A stretch of 46,702 bases of DNA from an uncultured Bacteroidales bacterium (GTDB lineage Bacteria > Bacteroidota > Bacteroidia > Bacteroidales > Paludibacteraceae), in the NCBI GenBank assembly GCA_902784425.1, contig CACZUS010000012.1, positions 1 to 46,702 on the forward strand, read 5' to 3'. Below the pieces are notes generated by a model. That model had not been told where the DNA came from and made no database searches. It saw nothing but the letters and a program-made list of their open reading frames with translations. Below, piece by piece: positions 274 to 38,632 of this stretch; position 1 is the stretch's first letter, and the number at the start of each line of letters is the position of its first letter. The position numbers were made by a program, and so were the translations under genes.

Positions 274-1341
274 ATGAATTTCACTATGCCACGTTATCAG
301 ACAAAAGCTCCAGTGCAACTTAGAAGAAAAAAATTAAAGAATGGAGGAGAATCTCTTTATTTGGATATTTATTATGATGGGAAACGAATGTATGAATATC
401 TGAAACTATATCTGAATCCTGAACGGACAGCAAAAGACAGACAGCAAAATAGAGAGATAATGAACATTGCACAAGAAATCTGCAATAAACGAATAGTAGA
501 GATACAGACAAAAGGACTTTTGATTGTTAGTCAAGACAAACTGATTGACTTGGTTGATAAATACGAAAAGAACGCAGTTTATCAAAGTGCGATACGAAGA
601 ATCATAAAACTTGTGAATGATAGAGCGGATGCAAGCGACGTAAACAAACGATTTGTGTTAGAGGTTCATTCGTGCATAGAGCAACTTGATGTTGCAATAA
701 ATACAAAGCATCTATATTTCCAGATGTTTTGTGTGTTTGTGCGAAAACTCATAAAAAAAGAGGTTATTCGTGAATTTACATTGCCTAAAAATGATTTCAA
801 ATTAGAGGAAACTCGTAGAATGTTCCTTACATTAGACGAAATCAAGAAATTTGCTGAGGTTAAAACCAACTACGATACTGAGGAAGAGGTAAAACGACTA
901 TTTATGTTCTGTTGCCTTACTGGTATTAGATATGTAGATGCTCACAAAATCAAATATGGAGATTTTGAAGAGATAAATGGTCGAATACGACTTAATTTCA
1001 GGCAGCAGAAAACATCTGGTTTGGAATACTATGATCTTACTGACAATGTTCGAAGATGGATAGAAACTGGTAAAGATGATGAACTTGTATTCAAAATAGA
1101 ACGTAAAAATCATCGCACTTATGAATGTTTGCAACGTCTTGTCGAACGTGCAGGTATCAACAAGCACATCACCTTTCACTGCGCACGTCACTCATTCGCC
1201 ATACTGATGATTGAATTGGGAGTGGATATATTTACAACATCTAAGCTGCTCGGTCATAGATCCGTTGCGACTACTCAAATCTATGCTAAGGTGCTGGATA
1301 AGAAGAAACAGAGTGCGGTGGATCTGATACCAGAGATTTGA
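274..1341 (+). CDS. int: Tyrosine-type site-specific integrase
   Basis: Catalyses integration and excision through a covalent 3'-phosphotyrosine intermediate. The 355-residue length is normal for Bacteroidetes phage and transposon integrases. The N-terminal ~90 residues resemble an arm-type DNA-binding domain, followed by a core-binding helical domain. The catalytic domain shows R219 in CLTGIRY, the H302-x-x-R305 box (HCARH), H328 in LGHRS and nucleophile Y337 (TTQIYAKV). The first ATG (274) is used; a second in-frame ATG (286) is possible. It is the leftmost complete gene, next to the candidate att site. The stop codon lies within the first of three tandem 13-bp repeats. Family assignment is secure; the att site is inferred. 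Confidence 0.95.
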   Translation: MNFTMPRYQTKAPVQLRRKKLKNGGESLYLDIYYDGKRMYEYLKLYLNPERTAKDRQQNREIMNIAQEICNKRIVEIQTKGLLIVSQDKLIDLVDKYEKNAVYQSAIRRIIKLVNDRADASDVNKRFVLEVHSCIEQLDVAINTKHLYFQMFCVFVRKLIKKEVIREFTLPKNDFKLEETRRMFLTLDEIKKFAEVKTNYDTEEEVKRLFMFCCLTGIRYVDAHKIKYGDFEEINGRIRLNFRQQKTSGLEYYDLTDNVRRWIETGKDDELVFKIERKNHRTYECLQRLVERAGINKHITFHCARHSFAILMIELGVDIFTTSKLLGHRSVATTQIYAKVLDKKKQSAVDLIPEI

Positions 1342-2727: not shown

Positions 2728-3567
2728 TCATACCGACGCTTTCCCCACCAGCCTTTCAATCAGTTTCCTTTGCGCTGAAAGTTCATCTATCAGTTTGTCG
2801 TTTTGTGTGATTACCGAGTTGTTTGCATCAATCAGTTTATCCACCTTATCATCTTCGTTCTCATCAATGTTTGGTATGCTGAATTTCAGTGTTGCCACGA
2901 TGTTGAAGATGTCGTATATATCGTCGAGCGCAAAGGTCTTGACGGGTAGTTTCTTTTTTAGTGAGTAGCAGGTGAGTTTATTATCATTGACGAATATGCG
3001 TTTAATCACTATACCATTCATTTTTGTGTCCATGAAATAAATGTGACCGTTCACGATGCTGTCTGTTGTAAGTTCCAGGTGTTCAAGAAAAAGAATGTCA
3101 CCTTTATCTATTGCAGGTTGCAGCACGTCACTACGCACAATGTGTATAAGGTTGAAGTTTGGCATCAACTTGTCTGGTATCGTGTCGTATAGATCCTTGT
3201 GCCGCTGAACGAAGTCCCAGATTCTTACATTCTGTTGCCTGGTTACGTCTATCGGAATTAATGGAGCTATCTTCATCTGCCCGGATAGATTGATTATTTC
3301 GCACTGCTTGTCTCCTATCTCATCTGTCATTAAGTCTTTTCTTAAATCTTCTTTAAGCATGGGTTCTTCATTAAACATTAACCAATTTACATTTAGACCT
3401 AACTTATTAGACCATTCTAAGGCTGTTTCTTTACCAAAATTATCTTTACCATTAAGAAGCTGATTAACACAAGCAGTTGATTTTCCTATTTCTTTTGCTA
3501 TTTTAGTCTGGGTTAGTCCGTTCTCTTTAAGCCATTTCTTTAATTTTTCTAAATTTTCTTTGTTCAT
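2728..3567 (-). CDS. XRE-family / S24-like phage repressor
   Basis: 279 residues. The N-terminal HTH (residues ~7-60; TQTKIAKEIGKSTACVNQLLNG) binds operators; the C-terminal S24/LexA-like domain (~100-235) mediates dimerisation and, in canonical members, self-cleavage. The canonical GDSMxP box reads R145-SDVLQP here: the catalytic Ser position is V148. The probable general-base Lys is K189 (GIVIKRI). Autocleavage is therefore doubtful. The C-terminus (240-279) is a coiled coil. It is transcribed away from the early operon, and two palindromes (3623-3660) lie in the divergent gap. The role as lysogeny repressor is a confident inference. Confidence 0.9.
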   Translation of the reverse strand: MNKENLEKLKKWLKENGLTQTKIAKEIGKSTACVNQLLNGKDNFGKETALEWSNKLGLNVNWLMFNEEPMLKEDLRKDLMTDEIGDKQCEIINLSGQMKIAPLIPIDVTRQQNVRIWDFVQRHKDLYDTIPDKLMPNFNLIHIVRSDVLQPAIDKGDILFLEHLELTTDSIVNGHIYFMDTKMNGIVIKRIFVNDNKLTCYSLKKKLPVKTFALDDIYDIFNIVATLKFSIPNIDENEDDKVDKLIDANNSVITQNDKLIDELSAQRKLIERLVGKASV

Positions 3568-16045: not shown

Positions 16046-16434
16046 AACACGATAAAACATTCATTACAATAGGCGCACACGCAAAATGCGAGCGAGAAAA
16101 GCACGATTTCTACTCGACAGATCCGAGAGCAGCGGAACAACTATTGGCTAATGTGAAGTTTCACGGAGGCATCTACGAGCCTTGCTGTGGAAAAGGTTGC
16201 TTATCAATACCTCTTGCAAAGGCAGGTTACAATGTGCTGAGTGCTGATAAGTTCGACCATGGATTCGGAATGTCAGGTGTAGATTTCTTTCAAACAAAGA
16301 AAATGCCAGATGGGTATGCAAACATAGTCACAAACCCACCATACAACCGAACGACTGACTTCATTTGTCACGCACTTGATATTTTGCAAGATGGGGGGGG
16401 GTATTGGCATTATTTCTCAAAACGCAATATTTAG
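16042..16434 (+). pseudogene. N6-adenine methyltransferase, frame broken at a G9 tract
   Basis: Motif I YEPCCGKGCLS (~residues 46-56) and catalytic motif IV TNPPYN (~98-103) identify an amino-methyltransferase of the phage Dam-like group. The frame runs into nine G residues (16393-16401) and stops at 16432-16434. One added G would continue into VLALFLKTQYLEGIERYE... IKWVRL (to 16628), which reads as the natural C-terminal half. As sequenced, the protein is truncated; the tract length suggests slipped-strand ON/OFF switching, although a sequencing error must be excluded. Confidence 0.75.
16393..16401 (+). repeat. Poly-G tract G9 in methyltransferase gene
   Basis: Nine consecutive G in a region otherwise AT-rich. 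G10 (or G7) gives the full-length reading frame of 16042-16628. Confidence 0.9.
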
Positions 16435-16628: not shown

Positions 16629-16852
16629 ACGTATTCGACCTAATACAATTCGATGAAGAGACTAAAACCCTACACGTCAAGCAAGCGACCACAAAAGGAT
16701 ACATTGAATGCGAGAATCACGGAGTGTTTGATGGCAGCTATCCAGGTAGCGAGCTAAGACGTGGCAGAGTTCAGAATGGGGGGGGGGATTTCTCCAACTC
16801 TGACGTGCGGATGCGAGACACAACTGTTTGTGTTCGAGGTGGTGGATGGTAA
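16613..16852 (+). pseudogene. C5-methyltransferase-like fragment, frame altered at a G10 tract
   Basis: The start is either ATG 16613 or 16625. The product matches small Bacteroidales phage proteins related to C5-methyltransferase recognition regions: TTKGYIECENHGVFDGSYPGSE then RRGRVQNGG. In the sequenced frame it then reads DFSNSDVRM and ends at 16852. Removing one G gives ISPTLTCGCETQLFVFE and a stop at 16862, which is the expected continuation (SPTLT is a typical motif). Like the upstream gene, it is one base off. Confidence 0.65.
16778..16787 (+). repeat. Poly-G tract G10 in C5-methyltransferase-like fragment
   Basis: Ten consecutive G. G9 (or G12) restores the conserved frame ending at 16862. 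Confidence 0.9.
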
Positions 16853-16862
16853 CGAAGAATAA

Positions 16863-17166
16863 TCAGATATTTTGCAGAAATTTTTTATCATTTTTTAAAT
16901 TCTGTGTTTTGCAAAGGGTGCGGTTCGGGAGAATAGCACTCTTTTTGTTTTTAGTTTGCAATAAAAAAAGCAAATTGAGATAAAACTAAATGAAATTAAA
17001 ATAAAATTCAAAAATCAATGAAAATCAGCACGATATAAAAAGGCTAAAAAGTGATTTCATATATTTTTTAGGTTGTTTTTTTTCTGATTTTTTTTATATT
17101 AATTTGCATCAACCATAATAATTTGATTGTAAGTCGGATTATATAGGCAACACAATTTTTTAAAGC
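16863..17166. other. Gene-free AT-rich stretch before the late operon
   Basis: No convincing ORF. It includes T-rich tracts (17061-17095) and a probable late promoter near 17099-17106 (TTAATTTG then C, one mismatch to TAnnTTTG). A weak stem near 16927-16945 (GAG / CTC then T5) may end the upstream operon. Confidence 0.5.
17099..17106 (+). promoter_or_regulatory. Probable late-operon promoter
   Basis: TTAATTTG followed by CATC resembles the Bacteroidetes -7 element with one mismatch. The predicted 5' leader (~75 nt) would contain the Cas12a-type hairpin directly before the first late ATG. Confidence 0.4.
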
Positions 17167-17185
17167 AATTTCTACTATTGTAGAT
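17167..17185 (+). CRISPR. Solitary Cas12a (type V-A) direct-repeat core
   Basis: AATTTCTACTATTGTAGAT is identical to the conserved 19-nt 3' end of Cas12a crRNA repeats, including the TCTAC / GTAGA stem and a known ATT-type loop. It is a single copy with no array, spacer set or cas gene in the window. It lies in the probable 5' leader of the late operon, ending 2 nt before the ATG at 17188. Solitary repeats encoded by phages can act as RNA anti-CRISPRs by occupying Cas proteins; this is the leading hypothesis. A translation-control hairpin is the alternative. Confidence 0.8.
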
Positions 17186-17187
17186 TA

Positions 17188-18267
17188 ATGAAAAAGGGTA
17201 TCAAAATATTGTTAGGTGCGCTCGGCCTCGGAGGTTTAGGTTTACTCATCTGGGGCAAGATTGGACAGACTAAGCGGATGATTAATAATCTGCAAGTCTT
17301 TCCAATGCTGTATGGTGGCATCAACGATATGAAGATAGATCTGCAAAAGGGTATCAAACTCCCTCTTGCGATAGACCTCATGAATCGCAGTGATGCGAGC
17401 TGCAAGATAAGAATCAACAGCCTTAACTTAGCAAACGGAAGCGGAGAGGTGTTCGCATACTCATCCTCAGGAAACTACGTCGTAGAGCTGAAACCATATC
17501 AGACATCAAGACTGACAAACATAGACGTTTGGATCAATGCTATAACAGTCTACAAGCTGCTCGGAACATCAATCATGACCCTTGTAAGCGGAGGAGACAC
17601 AACAACAATCAAGCAGAAAGCATTGAACATTGTTGAAAATTGCACAATCCAACTAAGTCTAAGTGTAAACGAGGCAATAACTGTTTCATTGAATATACCA
17701 TTTGGCGAGTCCGCAGAAGTGAGCGACGATAGTTCTCTTCACGGACTCGGCTTGGTTTGTGCGGCAGACCGCAAAATTCGTCCGCTATCAGACTACAACT
17801 ACCTGATTCCGGACAAGTCAAATCTAAAATACGACGATCGCATCATACTGACGGACGTAGAGCCTGAGGACACGGCTAAGTTCATTCGGAAGATTGCACG
17901 TCAATACAAGAGCGACACAAGCGCACTTGCAAAAAGTTTGAAAGGAGAAACTGTAAAACATACTACTGAAAACATCTGGAACTTCGTCGCTGATCATATT
18001 CAATATGTTCAAGACGCATCTGACAAGGAGCAGGTTCGCAGACCTCTACGAACCCTGTACGATCAAAAAGGTGATTGCGACTGCTACACTACACTGATAG
18101 CGAGTATGTGCGAGAACCTCGGACTCGACTATGTTGTGCGCATAGCCGAATACGACAACAAAGGCTACTTTCAGCACGTCTACTGCATCATCGAGGGCTA
18201 TGTGTGCGACCCTGTTGTGGACAGATGTTTCTACGAGAAGAAACCAACGAGAGTAAAGGATTTTTAA
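17188..18267 (+). CDS. Membrane-anchored transglutaminase-like protein
   Basis: 359 residues. N-terminal TM helix rich in Gly/Leu (residues ~4-24, GIKILLGALGLGGLGLLIWG). Residues ~30-170 form a beta-sandwich reminiscent of LEA-type domains (NLQVFPMLYGGINDMKIDLQ). The C-terminus (~255-350) is transglutaminase-like: KGDCDCYTT with C297 and C299, H330 (FQHVY) and an Asp in DPVVD. Such domains act as cysteine peptidases or acyltransferases. First gene of the late operon and first of many single-TM proteins; probably a virion protein or peptidoglycan-active entry enzyme. Confidence 0.7.
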   Translation: MKKGIKILLGALGLGGLGLLIWGKIGQTKRMINNLQVFPMLYGGINDMKIDLQKGIKLPLAIDLMNRSDASCKIRINSLNLANGSGEVFAYSSSGNYVVELKPYQTSRLTNIDVWINAITVYKLLGTSIMTLVSGGDTTTIKQKALNIVENCTIQLSLSVNEAITVSLNIPFGESAEVSDDSSLHGLGLVCAADRKIRPLSDYNYLIPDKSNLKYDDRIILTDVEPEDTAKFIRKIARQYKSDTSALAKSLKGETVKHTTENIWNFVADHIQYVQDASDKEQVRRPLRTLYDQKGDCDCYTTLIASMCENLGLDYVVRIAEYDNKGYFQHVYCIIEGYVCDPVVDRCFYEKKPTRVKDF

Positions 18268-18278
18268 ACTGAAAAAAG

Positions 18279-18563
18279 ATGGCAGATTTCAATTTGCAAT
18301 TCCTAAACGGAGTAGGCGAGAGCTACGACAAGCCTGTTCGCTCATATCAGGAGCGAGAGGTGGTTAGTCCGCTTACAAGAGGTGACTACGGAGACGGAAT
18401 GATGGTGGATGAGAACGGAAGTGCCGCATTCGACAACACTTCCGATGCGTTGATCTACGATCACCATTGTCACTGTCACACTTCACGTTTGGGAAGAATC
18501 ATTTTTTGGATGGCAGTAGGCGCAGTAGGCGCACAAATGCTGAAAAAATTATTTAAAGAGTAG
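18279..18563 (+). CDS. Small virion protein candidate with C-terminal TM
   Basis: 94 residues. A His/Cys patch (DHHCHCHTSR, ~63-72), possibly metal-binding, precedes a TM helix at ~74-88 (IIFWMAVGAVGAQML) and a basic tail. Lies 11 nt after the upstream stop. Confidence 0.6.
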   Translation: MADFNLQFLNGVGESYDKPVRSYQEREVVSPLTRGDYGDGMMVDENGSAAFDNTSDALIYDHHCHCHTSRLGRIIFWMAVGAVGAQMLKKLFKE

Positions 18564-18567
18564 TAGT

Positions 18568-18948
18568 ATGTATTACAAAGTTACCACATCGGAAAGCGGA
18601 TCGGCAGGTGCATTGAGAATGCACTCAACGCCAGACACGGACGAATCTTCCATTATCTCTTCCGTTCCTCACGGAGGAGTTGTACAAGGTTATTCGGTCA
18701 CTCCCGACCAGAACGGAATGCGCTACGTCTCATACAACGGCATCAGCGGATGGGTTTCAACCCTCTATCTGACTGCTTGTGACGAGAAGGGCAACACAAC
18801 GACAACCACAACGGTAGACCGACAGACAAACGTTTTACCACCTACTACTGACTCATCATCGGAAAGCACCTCCAACAAAGGTAAGACATGGCTTATCATC
18901 GGAGGAGTGGCAATGGCCGCAGGAGCCTTGATGAATGCGTTTATGTAA
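18568..18948 (+). CDS. SH3-like domain protein with C-terminal TM
   Basis: 126 residues. Residues 1-70 are a bacterial SH3 fold (YYKVTTSESG... LRMHSTPDTDESSIISSVPHG... GISGWVSTLYL), a domain that commonly binds cell wall. A Thr/Ser-rich linker follows, then a TM helix (~108-124, TWLIIGGVAMAAGALMNAF). Likely a virion-anchored wall-binding protein. Confidence 0.7.
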   Translation: MYYKVTTSESGSAGALRMHSTPDTDESSIISSVPHGGVVQGYSVTPDQNGMRYVSYNGISGWVSTLYLTACDEKGNTTTTTTVDRQTNVLPPTTDSSSESTSNKGKTWLIIGGVAMAAGALMNAFM

Positions 18949-18980
18949 AATTTTATTAACAACTTAAAAATATTACAAAA

Positions 18981-19199
18981 ATGGTAGGAGCAACAACAGA
19001 CGACAACAAGACGTTCGGTATGACAGGCAAGACTGCCACATACGTCGGAATCGGTCTCTTAGTTGGTGGTATCGCACTCGGTGCATACGCATTGACAAAG
19101 AAAAACAAGAGCAAAAAGGCAGGCAAGAGCTTGTCAGGTTGTGGCAAGAAGAAAAGTCACAAAAAAGGCTCAAAGAGACGCAAAGCAATTAGTTATTAA
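18981..19199 (+). CDS. Small single-TM basic protein
   Basis: 72 residues. TM helix at ~15-35 (TYVGIGLLVGGIALGAYAL) followed by a lysine-rich tail (KKNKSKKAGK... KKKSHKKGSKRRK), an inside-positive anchor that could contact nucleic acid. Virion membrane protein candidate. Confidence 0.65.
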   Translation: MVGATTDDNKTFGMTGKTATYVGIGLLVGGIALGAYALTKKNKSKKAGKSLSGCGKKKSHKKGSKRRKAISY

Positions 19200-19219
19200 T
19201 AACTAAAAGATTGAAACTT

Positions 19220-19669
19220 ATGAAATTCAGAAACATTAATTGGAAAGAGACAGCAACGCAGATTGCAGGTACTTTCGCAGGTATCGTGGCAGGTTCTTTC
19301 GTTGATAAGCAAATATCAGAGAATCAAGCCGTGGAAGGTTTGGCAGGAGAGGCAAAAGACTACCTCGTTCCTGGTATCGTCGCAGTAGGTGGTGCGTTGG
19401 TTAGCGCAGCAAGCGACAACAAGTTGGCTAAATCATTCGGATTTGGCGTAACAGCAGTAGGTTCAGCTAAGATCCTCAATCGTGCGGCAGGTAAGACAGT
19501 CGTATCATTGGGTGGTGTAGGTTCAGTTCGTCGTATGCCTCGCCGCATTCCTCAAAGAATGCGTGGAGTGGGAGAAGTCGAAATGAAGATGATCCCAGGC
19601 GTAGGCCGCACTTACAACTCTGGCTTCAAGGCTATGCCGGGTATGAGTGGACAGACTGGCTGTTTCTAA
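19220..19669 (+). CDS. Gly/Ala-rich membrane protein
   Basis: 149 residues from the ATG at 19220. Several hydrophobic Gly/Ala stretches (ATQIAGTFAGIVAGSFV, LVPGIVAVGGALVSAA, FGFGVTAVGSAKIL) suggest two or three membrane-inserted helices, then a basic and Met-rich C-terminus (RRMPRRIPQRMRG). Immediately precedes the capsid-protein candidate; possibly a major virion membrane protein. Confidence 0.6.
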   Translation: MKFRNINWKETATQIAGTFAGIVAGSFVDKQISENQAVEGLAGEAKDYLVPGIVAVGGALVSAASDNKLAKSFGFGVTAVGSAKILNRAAGKTVVSLGGVGSVRRMPRRIPQRMRGVGEVEMKMIPGVGRTYNSGFKAMPGMSGQTGCF

Positions 19670-19720
19670 GGAAATAGAGAGAATAAACATAATTAGGTTA
19701 AACAATAAAAAAGAAAATTT

Positions 19721-20320
19721 ATGAAGACAGATGCACTTGCACAATCTAAGATCGAGACATCTCAGATGGCATTTTGGGAGAAGTTCAAATATCTTCCAGA
19801 AGACATTCAAAAAGGATTGAATAACCAATCTTTGAAAGTAGTAGACTTCGTTGCCTACTCTTCCAAGAATTTGGCTGGCGCAACCATCAAGGAATTGATG
19901 GAGGCTTCCGATAACCAGCTTGAAGGTATCACAAACGTGAACAACCGTAAAATGGAAGCTTTGCAATACTTCCTTGTTAAGGGTGTCCGCTTGACTTCCG
20001 CAGTGATCGCAGGAGAGGATGCAATCACAGACACAACCATTGCAACGGCAGCTTTCACAACTCCAAGCGCAAACGTGTTGAACGGTGAGTTGGACATTTT
20101 GGTTTCTGGCAAAACCGCACTTCCTCGTATCTCTTGTGCTGTTTTCGGCAAGAGCGACGCAGCGACAGAAGGTTTGAAAGGCTATTATGAATTGGATTGT
20201 CCGTTCATGATCGCTCCATTGTCAGACATTGTTCCGACTTTGCGTTTGAACAGCAACGCAACAACAACAAGAGAGGTTGTTCGTTTTGAGTTGTTTGGCT
20301 GCAAAATCATTCCTGCATAA
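19721..20320 (+). CDS. Candidate major capsid protein
   Basis: 199 residues, no TM. A helical N-terminus (1-80) is followed by strands typical of a small beta-sandwich (VKGVRLTSAVI, LDILVSGKTALPRISCAVFG, CPFMIAPLSDIVPTLRLN, REVVRFELFGC). I recognise no capsid family; the case is contextual: a freestanding start with A-rich leader, high-abundance-type codon use, and two hairpins plus a strong terminator immediately downstream that would boost and stabilise its own message. Single-jelly-roll pairs such as in sphaerolipovirus-like phages are a possible analogy (with 20441-21214). Confidence 0.45.
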   Translation: MKTDALAQSKIETSQMAFWEKFKYLPEDIQKGLNNQSLKVVDFVAYSSKNLAGATIKELMEASDNQLEGITNVNNRKMEALQYFLVKGVRLTSAVIAGEDAITDTTIATAAFTTPSANVLNGELDILVSGKTALPRISCAVFGKSDAATEGLKGYYELDCPFMIAPLSDIVPTLRLNSNATTTREVVRFELFGCKIIPA

Positions 20321-24382: not shown

Positions 24383-25792
24383 ATGATACAGGAAGTAATG
24401 TCAGCAGTCTCAGCCGCAGCAGGCATCTACATTCTTGCAAAGAACAAAGGCAAGAACGAAAGCAAGAAAACCTTCGACCAACAAGTTGAGGAGAAGGCTT
24501 CTGAGATGTTTGCGGAGAAGATTGCGGAGCAACAAGCGGAGGAGGCGGCAAAAGATCCACGATACAGAGCAATGTACTTTGGAGACAAGGAAGAGGAATA
24601 CGATCCTTTCTACGACTACGCAAGTGATCCAGTCTACTTCAACGAAGAAATGCTGGAAAAGGCTAACTCATACGCAGACCGAATGTGCCATGCGTTTCGT
24701 GCGAGATTCGTTGCACCTATTCTGATTGAAACGGATGCTAAGACTCCTTATTCTGGATGGTGGACGGATGCGAGAGAGGGATTCGTAGAGTTGAACGTAG
24801 CCAACAAGTTCACAATGGCTCGTGACTTCTTCGGAGGCTCGCTTCGCTACTATGTTACGATGTTGGAGGTATTCAACCCGATCAATGCGAATGCACCATT
24901 GAATAAGATTTGTTTCAAGGATATTCAGGTGAATGGTAAGGATTGCCAGGTGTGGAACGTCGGAGGATGCTGGAATGAGGCATCAGCCTACCAGATGAGC
25001 TGCATGAACCGCAAATGGTACAACGATACCAAATCGACATTGAACAGCGGAATGGCTAACGCAGTTTCGCTAACATACATTCCAAAGGTGTACGAATATC
25101 AGTGCGACATCACCATCCCTGCACGATCTTCCGTCTATGTATGCGTCATGCTTCCGTTAGGATGCCAGCCAAAGTCTACAAACGTAAGACTCTACGCATT
25201 GAAGAGTGTGCAAGACCTAATCGACTTCGCACAGAACAACCCACCTATCCGCAATTTGTTTGATCCAGTCGGAGCAGACTTCAACGAGGGAGGAGCAGCA
25301 AGATACAACGCATACAACTTCTTAGAAGAGAGTCTTGGAGATCCAAACTTCGCATGGCAACTGAAAAGCAGTCCGGCAAGCGAGTTCAAAGAGAAGCTTA
25401 TCCGCAGATTGTGGGATGGTTCGATGGGATGCAGAGCTGCAATCTTGAACACTTTCGAAGCACCAGATTCACTTGCAAAAGGTGGTTTGAGCGCAAAGGT
25501 TTTCGTTTGCTCGGCAGATGATAACTTCGTGCAGGAGGGTGATCCGGACGGAAGAGATCCAAAATCCGATTGTCCGTCATTCGACCTCAAATATATGCAC
25601 GGTTCGAGACCTACGACAGGTTCAAACCAATACGACTGGCAAAATACCTACTTCGGAGAGTGGGAGGGAGAGTTGCCACGAAAGATGGAGTATTCAATAG
25701 ATGTAAAGAATGGCATTCAATCTTTGGCAGACGTTCTTTTGGATGGTATGAAGATTGAATACTACGATTTCAACAAACAAAATTTAGGATGA
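24383..25792 (+). CDS. Large beta-rich membrane-anchored virion protein
   Basis: 469 residues. N-terminal TM helix (~4-19, VMSAVSAAAGIYILAK), a charged coiled-coil (~24-55), then a ~400-residue soluble region with strand and loop character, many aromatics and several paired cysteines (VWNVGGCWNEASAYQMSCMNRKW). Size and topology suit a vertex, penton or membrane-linked coat protein. Largest structural protein besides the spike. No family is recognised. Confidence 0.55.
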   Translation: MIQEVMSAVSAAAGIYILAKNKGKNESKKTFDQQVEEKASEMFAEKIAEQQAEEAAKDPRYRAMYFGDKEEEYDPFYDYASDPVYFNEEMLEKANSYADRMCHAFRARFVAPILIETDAKTPYSGWWTDAREGFVELNVANKFTMARDFFGGSLRYYVTMLEVFNPINANAPLNKICFKDIQVNGKDCQVWNVGGCWNEASAYQMSCMNRKWYNDTKSTLNSGMANAVSLTYIPKVYEYQCDITIPARSSVYVCVMLPLGCQPKSTNVRLYALKSVQDLIDFAQNNPPIRNLFDPVGADFNEGGAARYNAYNFLEESLGDPNFAWQLKSSPASEFKEKLIRRLWDGSMGCRAAILNTFEAPDSLAKGGLSAKVFVCSADDNFVQEGDPDGRDPKSDCPSFDLKYMHGSRPTTGSNQYDWQNTYFGEWEGELPRKMEYSIDVKNGIQSLADVLLDGMKIEYYDFNKQNLG

Positions 25793-26689: not shown

Positions 26690-27805
26690 ATGAAAAGAGG
26701 TTTATTGGGAAACACACAAGTGGACACGGCCAACTACTGGACGGATGGCAAAGGCTCGCAATCGTTGAAATGCAACGAAACGAACCTTTATGCTCTTATA
26801 GACCTCTGTCAGGAGTCGGCAGAATTGGCGAAGAACGCATCAGAAAGACAAATGCAGTACTCACTTATGGACAAGTATTTTCTTTGTCTGAAAGCAATCG
26901 AATTAGCGGGAGCTGACGATAACCTACTGAAATTCTACGGCCAGGTGATCGCCAATATGGATGATAACGGCTCATTCAACATCATCTTCGCATCTTTGGA
27001 TGAGGAGAACATCTTTGTAGACAACCTTGTCTCACAACTTGCAGCGGCAGACTATGCGGAAGAGACCCTTAACGAGGAGTTTCTGGATTGGTATAAAGAG
27101 GTTGTCTTGGACTACAACTACTACCAGAATGCAGACGGAACACGAACCAAAACAGCACCTAAACTAAGCGGACTCGGAGCAACCTACACAGACGACTACT
27201 ATTCTAAGAAAGCGAAGGAAAGCGGAATGGCTCTGCTTTACATTGCTTGTGACAAGAATAAGGTGTTGGACGGATGCACCGACAGAAACGAGATGATGAA
27301 CAAACTGCTTTATCAAGGTCAGACATGGAACTGGCTCGGAAATTGCGGCACGAACATGACGAAAATATCTGTCATGGCGAACATCCAGGCAGGTATCAAA
27401 GCGGATTCCGGCAAGGAAACGGCAGACGAGACCCTGAGGGCATTCAAAGAGGAGAGTGAAGCACAAGGAAAGCAAACAAAAGGATTGGGATTCGATCCAG
27501 GAACCCTCGCAATCGTGATTATAACGGCAGTCACTGTCATTGTCACACTTATCACTTCTATCATTAAGATGAGAGAGGCTGAGGCAACAGCGAGAGTGGC
27601 AGAACAACTTGCAAATGCGCCAAACACGGATTTGGTTGAGCAATACTCACCTCAATACCAGGACTATTCAGATTATGTTGCTGAAATGCAAAGAATGCTC
27701 GATGATGCGGACGATATGAGCGCACTCGACATACTTCCGATAGTCGGAATGGGTGCTATTGCAGTACTCGCATTGATCTTAGCAAAACGAAAGGATAAAT
27801 CATGA
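26690..27805 (+). CDS. Virion protein with two C-terminal TM segments
   Basis: 371 residues. A soluble, helical N-terminal ~250 residues is followed by TM1 (~267-287, AIVIITAVTVIVTLITSII) and TM2 (~350-366, IVGMGAIAVLALILA) with basic end. Overlaps the lysozyme gene at ATGA. Probably a virion membrane or entry-pore protein. Confidence 0.55.
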   Translation: MKRGLLGNTQVDTANYWTDGKGSQSLKCNETNLYALIDLCQESAELAKNASERQMQYSLMDKYFLCLKAIELAGADDNLLKFYGQVIANMDDNGSFNIIFASLDEENIFVDNLVSQLAAADYAEETLNEEFLDWYKEVVLDYNYYQNADGTRTKTAPKLSGLGATYTDDYYSKKAKESGMALLYIACDKNKVLDGCTDRNEMMNKLLYQGQTWNWLGNCGTNMTKISVMANIQAGIKADSGKETADETLRAFKEESEAQGKQTKGLGFDPGTLAIVIITAVTVIVTLITSIIKMREAEATARVAEQLANAPNTDLVEQYSPQYQDYSDYVAEMQRMLDDADDMSALDILPIVGMGAIAVLALILAKRKDKS

Positions 27806-28332
27806 ACAAGAAGCCAATAATGATAGCAATTTCGGCAGCCTCGATTGGTTTAGTCGGGTTTGCTATCTACTGGCTTCGGAAGAAGAATGGAGGACAGAAT
27901 ATGAACATATCAGACAACGGACTAAACGCAATCAAAAAGTATGAGGGTTGCAGACTAACGGCCTATCAGGACGTAAAGGGAGTGTGGACGATTGGATACG
28001 GACACACTGGCGACGTTTACTATGGCGAGACCATCACACAAGCGGAGGCTGACGCATTGTTTCGAAACGACATTCAGAAGTTCGTGAAAGGTGTGAACAG
28101 TCTGTTGGGATCTACCAGAGTGAATCAAAACCAATTCGATGCACTCGTTTCGTTCGCCTACAACTGCGGACTGACCGCATTGAAAAATTCAACATTACTA
28201 AGGAAAGTAAAAGCAGACCCTAACGACCCAACCATCGAAACTGAGTTTAAAAAATGGGTCTATTCAGGAGGAAAATACATACAAGGACTTGCCAATAGGC
28301 GAGCATCCGAAAGCAAACTATATTTCGCATAA
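27802..28332 (+). CDS. Membrane-anchored GH24 lysozyme
   Basis: 176 residues. TM helix ~5-24 (MIAISAASIGLVGFAIYWLR), then a GH24 (T4-type) domain from ~35: E48, D57 and T63 have the E-x8-D-x5-T spacing, followed by IGYGHT. Cleaves peptidoglycan glycan strands. A signal-anchor lysozyme among virion membrane proteins may help entry, as muralytic virion enzymes do in membrane phages, or serve lysis as a SAR-type endolysin. Coupled by ATGA to the upstream structural gene. Confidence 0.9.
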   Translation: MNKKPIMIAISAASIGLVGFAIYWLRKKNGGQNMNISDNGLNAIKKYEGCRLTAYQDVKGVWTIGYGHTGDVYYGETITQAEADALFRNDIQKFVKGVNSLLGSTRVNQNQFDALVSFAYNCGLTALKNSTLLRKVKADPNDPTIETEFKKWVYSGGKYIQGLANRRASESKLYFA

Positions 28333-36085: not shown

Positions 36086-38620
36086 TTATCTCACTGCGAA
36101 TTGCGCTCCGACTGCACCTCCGAATCGGTTCTTTCCGTCGATGGTTGCCACCATGTTCTCAACTTTGATTACTACGTCAGCATCGTGCTTGAACTCCGAG
36201 CCACCACGGTAGTCTCCATCCTTAGTGCATTGGAAGATAGCCACAGATGCAATTCCCTCTGTTATCTCGTTCAACTCGTCAGGTTCGATACCAAGGTCAT
36301 TGACAGAATCAAAGAATACCACGTCATACTCTCCAAGATCCAACGGAATGCGATCTGCGATATAGAAGTTGTCGTTTGCCACGTTCAGACGTTTGATCTT
36401 CTCTTGTAACGTGTAGCCGAATTTCTCTTCCGATGCGATGTAGAGAACTTTCTTGCCAAGGTTCTGAGACAGGTACTTAGCGAATAGCAGACAGAATGTT
36501 GATTTTCCGTTACCTGCGCTTCCGTACACCATCATCTTGAAGTTCTCGCAAGGATCACCGATGAGTGACAACCAACGGCCAGTGAAACCCATTTTGTTAA
36601 AACGAGCATTGACAAAATCTGTGGTTGATACAACGCCCTGATGGTCTGCGTTGAGATCGTCCACACCTTGCAGCTTGCCACGTTGCTGATTGTTTAGGAT
36701 TCCGTAGAGTCCACGCAACTGTCTCTCCGTTGCTTCAATCTTTTCTGTCTTGCCATCAATGTAGGCTTTCAGTGCTTTTTTCATCTCTGCGAACTCGTCT
36801 TTGCGGTCGTCAGGAATGACAGCCTTATCCATACGTTTCAGTAGGTTCTCTGCCTCCTTTTTCTTGTTGACCTTCTCCTGGTTTTTGATGTATGCGTTAG
36901 AAATCTTCGTATCTTCTCCAACTCTGTAAGAATCAACGATTGCTTTCAGTGCCTCGTAGTTCTGGCTCTCGAACTTGTCCGATGCGCCATAAAGTCCGTC
37001 AATGATTCCGTTACACATCTTGACAAGAGATTTCTGAATTTGCATAATCTCATCAGCATATTTTGAAGTCTTACGAATGCGCTTCTCCGTTATAGCCTTC
37101 TGCACGGCATTCAGCAACGTGTTAGGGTTGTTGCTCTTGTGGTTCTTAATCTCGCTCATCTTACGTCCTTGCATCCAGATGTATCGTTTGATTAACTTAA
37201 CCTCTTCTGGGAGTGTAGGGAGGGTTTCGCCTTTGAAAGGTACTTGGTCTTTCTTTTGCTTTGTTTCTTTCTTTTGCTTTGGCTCTTTCTTTACCTTCTC
37301 TTCCTCCTTTTTCTCCTCTTTTGCCTTCTCCGTCGTCTTGTGGTTGATCTTATCCACCTCTTCCTTAGTAGAGAGAACAAGAATTGACTCCATCACTCCG
37401 TTAGTGACAACATCTTTCCCATTTTTGTCAGGGTACTTGATCGAATACTCGTATTTCTTACCTTTTACAGGTGTAACCTCTACGACCTCACCACCTGCAT
37501 TGGCAATTTTGTACTTAACGAAGTGACCGATTTTGAACTTAGGTTCTGTCACCTTTTGAACGATTGAATCTTCGAAGAAGTCGTAGTCTCCACCATCAGC
37601 AGTATAGACAATGCGACCATCTGGTGTCTCATTCCATTCAGAAATTAGGATCGGTGTAGTGTTTTCCTTACCTGATGAATCTTTTGTCGTCACCCAGTCA
37701 CCGACCTTGTATTTTGGAATTGGGAACTTCTCCCATTTTGCATCTTTCTTCTCTTCTTTCTTCCCATTCTTTGAAATCTGCTCGTTCACCATATCAACAA
37801 TAGAATCTACTGCTTTGGTGATGTCTGCATCTTCTCCATAGAACTCTGAGATCTCGATTGCATCCTTTACCTTGTTACGCATCTCATCGTCTTTCAAGTA
37901 CATCTTATAGTTTTCGTACTCGCTTGCTAAATTGTCTTTTGTTATTCTCATATCGTTTGATTTTTTAAATTTATCTTGCATTTCTATTTCTGTAGCTTTT
38001 CTTTTGTAATATTGAGATGGGTACAAATCAATACCAAGAACTTCACGCAAAACTGTTAAAGGAATGATGTCACTAATTCCTACATTATAGGTCTTACAAT
38101 ACCACTCAAATGTTTTTGTCCCCTCTTTTTCCCCAAGTTCATCCACAAGTTTATTCAAGATGTAACGCATTGTATCCATCTCGTTGTTTGGATCAGGAGT
38201 GGGAGTTTTGTTTCCTTTCCTCTCTTTTGATTTCCTTTCTCTGAAATTCGGTATGAATATTTTTAATGCTTCCAAATCATCTGGGAAAAGTTCTTTGAAA
38301 TAATCCTCCAACTCTACTCTGACTGCTTTTTGATCGCTTATAGCGAATGCTACATTTTCATCAGTCCATACCATTGGCCTTTTGTCTGTTTTAGAGACAG
38401 TAGCAGGTATTATATCACCTTTTAGGTAATAAATCATACTTACAAGTTTTTTTGCCTTTAATCTGTTCCATTCAGGATCATTTCCAGGATATAAAGCGTT
38501 CCATTTTGAATTGAGTTTATTAACTAACTCAATTCCTGCATTGTCAATATCATCCTCATCTATGAACCCTTCATTAGCATACTTGTATTCGTACTGTTTA
38601 CTATTATTCTCCTTGCTCAT
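36086..38620 (-). CDS. RadA/KaiC-like ATPase fused to a long polyvalent-type N-terminus
   Basis: 844-846 residues (ATG at 38620 or 38626). C-terminal ATPase: Walker A GSAGNGKST (~702-710), Walker B VVFFDS (~769-774) and KNRFG (~832-836), the signature of RadA/Sms. Residues ~300-400 contain two small SH3-like barrels (KYKVGDWVTTKDSSG, KFKIGHFVKYKI). A charged linker (KKEEEKVKKEPKQKKETKQ) precedes a helical region. RadA catalyses branch migration in recombination. Domain-rich build and neighbours suggest a polyvalent protein delivered or expressed with viral DNA; a packaging role cannot be excluded since no terminase is found. Confidence 0.7.
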   Translation of the reverse strand: MSKENNSKQYEYKYANEGFIDEDDIDNAGIELVNKLNSKWNALYPGNDPEWNRLKAKKLVSMIYYLKGDIIPATVSKTDKRPMVWTDENVAFAISDQKAVRVELEDYFKELFPDDLEALKIFIPNFRERKSKERKGNKTPTPDPNNEMDTMRYILNKLVDELGEKEGTKTFEWYCKTYNVGISDIIPLTVLREVLGIDLYPSQYYKRKATEIEMQDKFKKSNDMRITKDNLASEYENYKMYLKDDEMRNKVKDAIEISEFYGEDADITKAVDSIVDMVNEQISKNGKKEEKKDAKWEKFPIPKYKVGDWVTTKDSSGKENTTPILISEWNETPDGRIVYTADGGDYDFFEDSIVQKVTEPKFKIGHFVKYKIANAGGEVVEVTPVKGKKYEYSIKYPDKNGKDVVTNGVMESILVLSTKEEVDKINHKTTEKAKEEKKEEEKVKKEPKQKKETKQKKDQVPFKGETLPTLPEEVKLIKRYIWMQGRKMSEIKNHKSNNPNTLLNAVQKAITEKRIRKTSKYADEIMQIQKSLVKMCNGIIDGLYGASDKFESQNYEALKAIVDSYRVGEDTKISNAYIKNQEKVNKKKEAENLLKRMDKAVIPDDRKDEFAEMKKALKAYIDGKTEKIEATERQLRGLYGILNNQQRGKLQGVDDLNADHQGVVSTTDFVNARFNKMGFTGRWLSLIGDPCENFKMMVYGSAGNGKSTFCLLFAKYLSQNLGKKVLYIASEEKFGYTLQEKIKRLNVANDNFYIADRIPLDLGEYDVVFFDSVNDLGIEPDELNEITEGIASVAIFQCTKDGDYRGGSEFKHDADVVIKVENMVATIDGKNRFGGAVGAQFAVR

Positions 38621-38632
38621 AACCATATCGTT

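Follow-up and report, generated by a model that had tools for sequence, protein, structure and literature searches.

Introduction

RNA anti-CRISPRs (Racrs) directed at type V-A systems are already known, with three of them, RacrVA1-3, having been shown to inhibit the Moraxella V-A system (Camara-Wilpert et al., 2023, PMC10651486), so the first-pass annotation of the locus discussed here was right to treat such inhibitors as established. In the portion of that paper on which we draw, the Racrs are small non-coding RNAs, each a solitary V-A repeat-like hairpin in a viral genome, outside genes and without cas genes, and are proposed to act by occupying Cas proteins; the words “structural” and “late” are absent from its main text. 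The viral solitary repeat units (SRUs) of Faure et al. (2019; as cited in the consulted parts of PMC10651486 and PMC8616872) are likewise orphan repeats on mobile elements, and the thresholds given for their detection with SRUFinder are coverage of at least 90% of the full repeat and a score of 41.1 bits (PMC10651486, same portion). A Cas12a handle in a 5' UTR is otherwise familiar from engineered Cas12a-responsive mRNAs (PMC9943656, PMC10115826), which the sections consulted describe as synthetic, eukaryotic and made to silence the mRNA. In the open-licence PMC literature we found no report of a handle placed in the mRNA leader of a phage.

Here we analyze a window of 46,702 nt, an entire contig, which carries one such solitary V-A hairpin in a viral genome, outside genes. 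Unlike the Racrs, the window copies the 19-nt handle alone, in the leader of a protein-coding mRNA 2 nt from the ATG, without a strong promoter directly upstream and with no acr gene recognized in its vicinity. Unlike the published repeat units, it is handle-only and likely lies below the coverage and score cut-offs as these are stated in the part of the source consulted. We propose that the window handle works like a Racr, yet it falls short of the published coverage threshold. A described virus that the prophage in the window resembles, Salisaeta icosahedral phage 1 (SSIP-1), is a tailless, membrane-containing phage with a PRD1-adenovirus type architecture and two types of capsid protein (PMC6356626, in the part consulted).

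Results

An Exact Cas12a Handle Directly Before a Start Codon

The pattern search recovers an exact copy of the handle, AATTTCTACTATTGTAGAT, in the window (Table 1). The first-pass annotation had described this core and its stem, TCTAC/GTAGA, and the description holds at 19 of 19 nt, with the stem present in both the minimum-energy and the centroid folds predicted for the leader; the leader stretch as a whole is no more stable than its shuffles by fold prediction (z of −0.39). The handle stands outside coding sequence, in the gap between two called genes with a weak methyltransferase family match on one side and a transglutaminase-like domain on the other. It is followed by TA and then by the ATG at 17188, which is the first ATG of a 367-codon plus-strand open frame spanning the handle and, as had been claimed, begins the first gene of the apparent structural operon.

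Table 1. Features of the window that bear on the handle and its surroundings.
Feature	Position	Strand	Basis or remark
Tyrosine integrase (prophage)	274..1341	+	
HTH_3 protein, likely lysogeny repressor	2728..3567	-	
AT-rich gap between genes (24% GC), presumed to hold the structural operon's promoter and 5' leader	16853..17187	+	Gene calls
Weak candidate promoter TTAATTTG	17099..17106	+	Inference; about 60 nt 5' of the handle, one mismatch from TAnnTTTG
Separate predicted 11-pair leader hairpin, 5' of the handle	17118..17142	+	Fold prediction; stretch not above shuffles
Exact 19-nt Cas12a (type V-A) crRNA handle AATTTCTACTATTGTAGAT	17167..17185	+	Pattern search; stem 17171-17175/17180-17184, loop TATT
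359-aa protein with transglutaminase-like domain, SSIP-1 gp34 homologue, first operon gene	17188..18267	+	
Conserved following genes	18279..20320	+	
199-aa predicted beta-sandwich protein	19721-20320	+	Best matches are capsid proteins of tailless viruses
Endolysin	27802..28332	+	
846-aa ATPase-domain protein	36086..38626	-	Resembles part of SSIP-1 (24634-25314)

A chance origin of the match had been judged very unlikely, and the numbers bear this out: the expected count of exact copies in the window, on both strands and under a first-order Markov model, is 1.3 × 10−6, or 6.5 × 10−6 if any base is allowed at the variable loop position. With up to 3 mismatches allowed, the window yields no other match, and 100 shuffles contained 0.04 matches on average (matches in 4 of the 100). 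There is no second handle hairpin in the window, the minus-strand match being the same palindrome, and a search of the 3.32 Mb assembly that left the variable loop position free matched only 17167-17185. Since this match is single and the Cas12a model TIGR04330 has none in the assembly, the earlier statement that the locus lacks an array and cas genes also stands. The reversed handle pattern gave 0 matches in 300 family genomes.

Neither a canonical promoter directly 5' of the handle nor a terminator was found by the promoter and leader scans of the window, and the sigma-70 scan returned 4 sites against 2.5 in shuffles, which is near chance. The sequence TTAATTTG comes within one mismatch of TAnnTTTG, which we take to be the consensus of the Bacteroidota −7 element. 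Among 74 viral handle sites (one of 75 was dropped as too close to a contig end), 9 have a TAnnTTTG box 0–15 nt before the handle, compared with a mean of 1.0 and a maximum of 5 in shuffles. Upstream of the intergenic region the window also contains two poly-G tracts of 9 and 10 G (16391-16405 and 16776-16790), which lie in similar context inside small ORFs, the second of them within a methyltransferase-like fragment, and are possible phase-variation tracts.

The Copied Segment Stops at the Handle

In the family, a V-A repeat has a variable 5' half followed by the handle, about 36 nt in all, of which the window has only the 19-nt handle; the 5' half is missing. When the 17 nt 5' of the handle are compared with 57 array halves, the best agreement is 7 of 17 positions, a value equaled by 483 of 500 shuffles, and among the 75 distinct viral sites described below the corresponding 17 nt reach 12/17 in only 6. 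Copying that stops at the handle is expected from selection on the part that Cas12a binds, unlike the capture of a repeat, and an array remnant is ruled out since the window has neither a second handle nor a repeat 5' half. At 19 of about 36 nt, coverage is about 53%, below the SRUFinder cut-off, and 19 exact bases correspond to about 38 bits by our own estimate, which is not SRUFinder output. Handle-only sites should therefore escape the Racr survey, probably on both coverage and score. What had been called a solitary repeat is thus solitary and an exact handle, but being a 19-nt handle and not a 36-nt repeat, it is not one in the published sense.

A Probable Structural Operon of a Prophage Resembling SSIP-1

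Besides its integrase, HTH_3 repressor-like gene and endolysin, the window encodes methyltransferases. The 359-aa protein whose gene follows the handle matches SSIP-1 gp34 at 24% identity (E of 8 × 10−6, with 35% of the query aligned), and a second stretch of SSIP-1 is matched by the 846-aa ATPase-domain protein. The 199-aa protein, encoded by the third called gene after the 359-aa gene, yields an all-beta model with a pLDDT of 85 when built from 12 sequences, superseding a poor first model (pLDDT 54); two PDB entries match it at E ≤ 0.001, the FLiP penton and SPV1, at low TM-scores of 0.25–0.43. Most of the window's structural genes had no match in PHROGs. Because of the gp34 and ATPase matches to SSIP-1 and the capsid-like all-beta model, together with gene order, the operon after the handle is very probably structural. 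The first-pass annotation had placed the handle in a late-operon leader; homology and gene order do fit a structural operon, and its lateness is read from these same two lines of evidence.

Judged by its genes, the prophage resembles SSIP-1 (JN880423) and appears to be a temperate, SSIP-1-like virus, having the gp34-like structural protein and the similar ATPase region in common with it. It differs in being an integrase-bearing prophage of an intestinal-type Bacteroidales lineage and in having the handle hairpin, which is not present in the SSIP-1 record. One genome of the same genus contains two prophages with the operon, whose first genes encode products 47% and 43% identical to that of the window. 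The SSIP-1-like operon is also seen in many Bacteroidota genomes and some metagenome-assembled genomes (L146-L174), which suggests that tailless proviruses of this kind are widespread in Bacteroidota.

The Handle Is Absent From Related Leaders

Alignment identified 30 loci with relatives of the 359-aa protein (29 plus L100), exact peptide patterns of one protein having given none; one locus is without a leader and 29 are readable. None of the 29 readable leaders carries the handle, with at least 6 mismatches everywhere in the 130 nt before the chosen start, in a set where some records duplicate others and the starts of distant relatives are uncertain. Because it is absent from all of these leaders, the handle is, on this comparison, a recent gain in this lineage and not ancestral. 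Conservation of the hairpin in related prophages, which had been put forward as a check, accordingly fails in its simple form, and an ancestral regulatory hairpin is ruled out as far as the sequence is concerned.

Hairpins of another kind do occur in these leaders. When 12 relatives were folded, 6 showed a leader hairpin signal with z ≤ −2 at one or more of the tested lengths, two of the six being near copies, and the hairpins (for example that of L149, directly before the ATG) are unrelated in sequence to the handle. As a separate feature, direct repeats with a period of 9–10 nt, about one helical turn, lie 5' of the 359-aa homologue, and in 9 of 11 relatives (L100, L102, L148-L152, L154 and L155) they score above every one of 60 shuffles; they are probably the sites of an operon activator. 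In the window, the best direct repeat at 16970-17024 has a period of 11 and merely equals the shuffles.

Cas12a and Matching Repeats in Potential Hosts

The window's own assembly, which is 95.8% complete, has no match to TIGR04330 in a search where 14 control genomes also gave none and relatives scored up to 1632 bits. In the family, Cas12a exceeds the cut-off of this model in 12 of 358 genomes, and in the genus in 1 of 16 (G143), where it adjoins an array of 42 repeats; 40 of these have the loop TATC and the last two are identical to the window handle. More generally, the window handle agrees at 19 of 19 nt with V-A handles of the genus and the family, and the exact handle is found in 20 of 300 family genomes and in 4 of 16 genus genomes, the window's own included. 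As to the proposed check on whether hosts have a Cas12a with the matching loop, the assembly itself shows none, and V-A systems with the identical handle occur elsewhere in the genus and family.

From the family arrays we collected V-A spacers, 160 initially and 202 distinct ones once the repeat pattern was relaxed; G143 supplied 41 of the 202. None of the 202 matches the window over 19 or 20 identical bases. Weak partial matches of V-A spacers were seen to the viral contigs L194, L046, L206 and L214.

Handles Recur in Viral Contigs and Beside a Relaxase Gene

A search of IMG/VR gives 103 stretches with the handle, 55 with the exact sequence and 48 in which the variable loop position is C, G or T; a hairpin permuted to keep the composition is found in 1. 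The 103 stretches hold 105 sites, reduced to 75 by removal of near-duplicates, of which a simple ORF caller places 63 between genes. At 29 of the 63 sites a same-strand gene starts within 100 nt of the handle, where 16.8 would be expected (P = 0.00025), and at 16 the distance is at most 40 nt (9.6 expected, P = 0.02); the counts within 20 nt (10, with 6.2 expected, P = 0.08) and within 6 nt (2, with 3.3 expected) show no significant excess. Leaders in general are thus enriched for handles, and extreme closeness to the start is not. The distance from the handle to the next start varies widely among these contigs, and at 33 of the 63 intergenic sites there is no gene within 150 nt.

We scanned 28 proteins encoded 3' of viral handles against PHROGs, one gene being counted twice at different lengths and one site lying within a coding frame. 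Labels of virion genes were obtained for a major head gene 14 nt after the handle (L080), a portal gene at 32 nt (L061), a head-tail adaptor gene at 6 nt (L084) and a head scaffold gene at 16 nt (L067, where a spurious-looking minus-strand ORF overlaps the site), with weak tail or tape-measure labels in L202 and L206; the gene after the L060 handle has an adaptor match in Pfam. The portal gene of L178 was left out because a terminator-like hairpin lies between handle and gene. Other downstream labels are an Erf-like annealing protein (L205), an HTH protein (L180), a methyltransferase (L034) and a marginal spanin (L064), while most of the 28 proteins have no function label in this tally, which ignores kinship among contigs. 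The earlier remark that an example built into a late mRNA leader would be unusual was too strong, given that handles precede virion genes in other viral contigs.

We also looked for the arrangement as such in bacterial genomes. A handle with an ATG within 8 nt is matched in 14 of 393 genomes of the order, and of the 29 loci inspected (30 of 35 places) 3 are solitary; the arrangement is rare in bacterial genomes, because only the window's solitary site opens an ORF of more than 27 aa. One contig (C160) of a genome of the same genus (G159) has two solitary handles, L225:8763-8781 (-) and L226:4442-4460 (-), one of which directly abuts, at 0 nt, the ATG of a relaxase gene (PF03432) with a TraG-like coupling protein next to it.

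Several other arrangements were seen in the course of these searches. A composite pattern, in which a hairpin ending in GTGGATTGAAAC is joined within 30 nt by a V-A handle and then by a terminator-like hairpin, matches 7 IMG/VR stretches, 6 of them of this form (L037:2633-2677, L045:5677-5721, L058:3517-3563, L199, L257 and L258); the handles of L257 and L258 are loop variants, and several units are preceded by a TTTGCA-type promoter. Taking the GTGGATTGAAAC-ending hairpin to be a type I-C-like repeat tail, these units look like single small RNAs that mimic two CRISPR types. A solitary handle with a GTT loop (L227:5818-5836 (-), contig C15 of G085, a family genome without a Cas12a match) directly follows a promoter-like stretch, TACTTTTGTGG, and precedes a terminator-like hairpin. 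Exact handles also occur in pairs about 40 nt apart (L035:4613-4673 (-) and L042:4628-4686 (+)), too close for repeat-spacer units.

Discussion

The reading that we favor, with moderate confidence, is that the window handle is a handle-only mimic of a V-A repeat, which serves as an RNA anti-CRISPR by presenting a Cas12a decoy in the leader of a structural mRNA. Transcription of the operon, if it runs through the handle, would put a Cas12a-binding element on every structural mRNA, and in a host that has this common type of repeat, Cas12a may be expected to bind it. Cas12a processes pre-crRNA just 5' of the handle, and it would probably cut the leader there and stay loaded with the start of the phage mRNA as a useless guide. 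The DNA flanking this pseudo-guide reads AGAT. With no TTTV PAM there, the pseudo-guide is useless and the phage is spared self-targeting; a self-targeting crRNA is ruled out on the same ground. Cas12a would in this way be titrated away from genuine crRNAs, to the presumed benefit of the phage. In favor of this reading are the improbability of a chance match, the end of the copied segment at the mature-crRNA handle, the V-A systems with the same handle in genus and family, and the recurrence of handles in viral leaders; against it count the handle-free leaders of relatives, the want of Cas12a and array in the window's own assembly, the failure of the 202 spacers to match the window, the lack of a canonical promoter directly 5' of the handle, and the non-significant enrichment of viral handles at the shortest distances from a start. 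A decoy made late could guard a replicating or induced phage, while a purely late transcript comes after the incoming DNA has been exposed and gives no guard at entry unless the promoter is active early, a point that the first-pass annotation had left aside.

Binding of Cas12a to the leader would also be expected to cost the phage something by lowering expression, as it does in engineered eukaryotic mRNAs, and this leaves room for the handle to be a switch acting in cis. In that case the first structural gene would be tuned by host Cas12a that binds or cleaves its leader, phage or host would regulate morphogenesis according to whether Cas12a is present, and titration would be a by-product. The closeness of the handle to the ATG, both here and before the G159 relaxase, fits such a switch. 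Engineered mRNAs that carry the handle in their 5' UTR are repressed up to 81-fold in yeast (PMC9943656, in the part consulted), and processing-dead AsCas12a still represses by 81% in human cells (PMC10115826, likewise in part). We nevertheless think it quite unlikely, because elsewhere the distance to the next start varies so widely, 33 of 63 intergenic viral handles have no gene within 150 nt, and some viral handles stand in promoter-handle-terminator units. That the handle is a functionless piece of a host V-A repeat captured by recombination is unlikely too: its absence from relatives implies a recent gain, and V-A arrays in the family are common enough to act as donors, but a captured piece should have brought the repeat 5' half or remnants of spacers, neither of which was found, and handle-only sites recur before genes and after promoters in other viral contigs.

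An ordinary leader hairpin, concerned with mRNA stability or control of translation and similar to a handle by chance, is distinctly improbable. The hairpin signals in half of the folded relatives, such as L149, speak for it, but they have no sequence in common with the handle, the exact match is not to be expected by chance at 1.3 × 10−6, and the leader already contains a separate predicted hairpin. It is barely credible that the handle and the coding sequence after it form a minimal crRNA gene, with a guide against competing elements. Viral mini-arrays are indeed known (PMC8616872, in the part consulted), but here the stretch that would serve as spacer opens a coding sequence, no second repeat follows it, and no TTTV PAM accompanies its only near copies in the window, which differ at 4 and 5 of 20 nt.

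Returning to the decoy, a broader and more tentative idea, which we hold to be possible though on balance doubtful, is that viruses and conjugative elements equip the transcripts of their own virion or transfer genes with such handles as a Cas12a sponge, and perhaps a sensor, with no dedicated small RNA. Such a class would span unrelated elements and would have escaped notice because the full repeat is what searches look for. If a bare handle in a structural mRNA does work, an inhibitor costs 19 nt and is dosed by the virus's own expression, searches for full repeats miss inhibitors of this kind, and counter-defence against V-A systems would be commoner than reported. A handle in a phage leader would then be the natural counterpart of the engineered Cas12a-controlled mRNAs, and makes it possible to test clearly whether, in bacteria, mRNA leaders are read by Cas12a.
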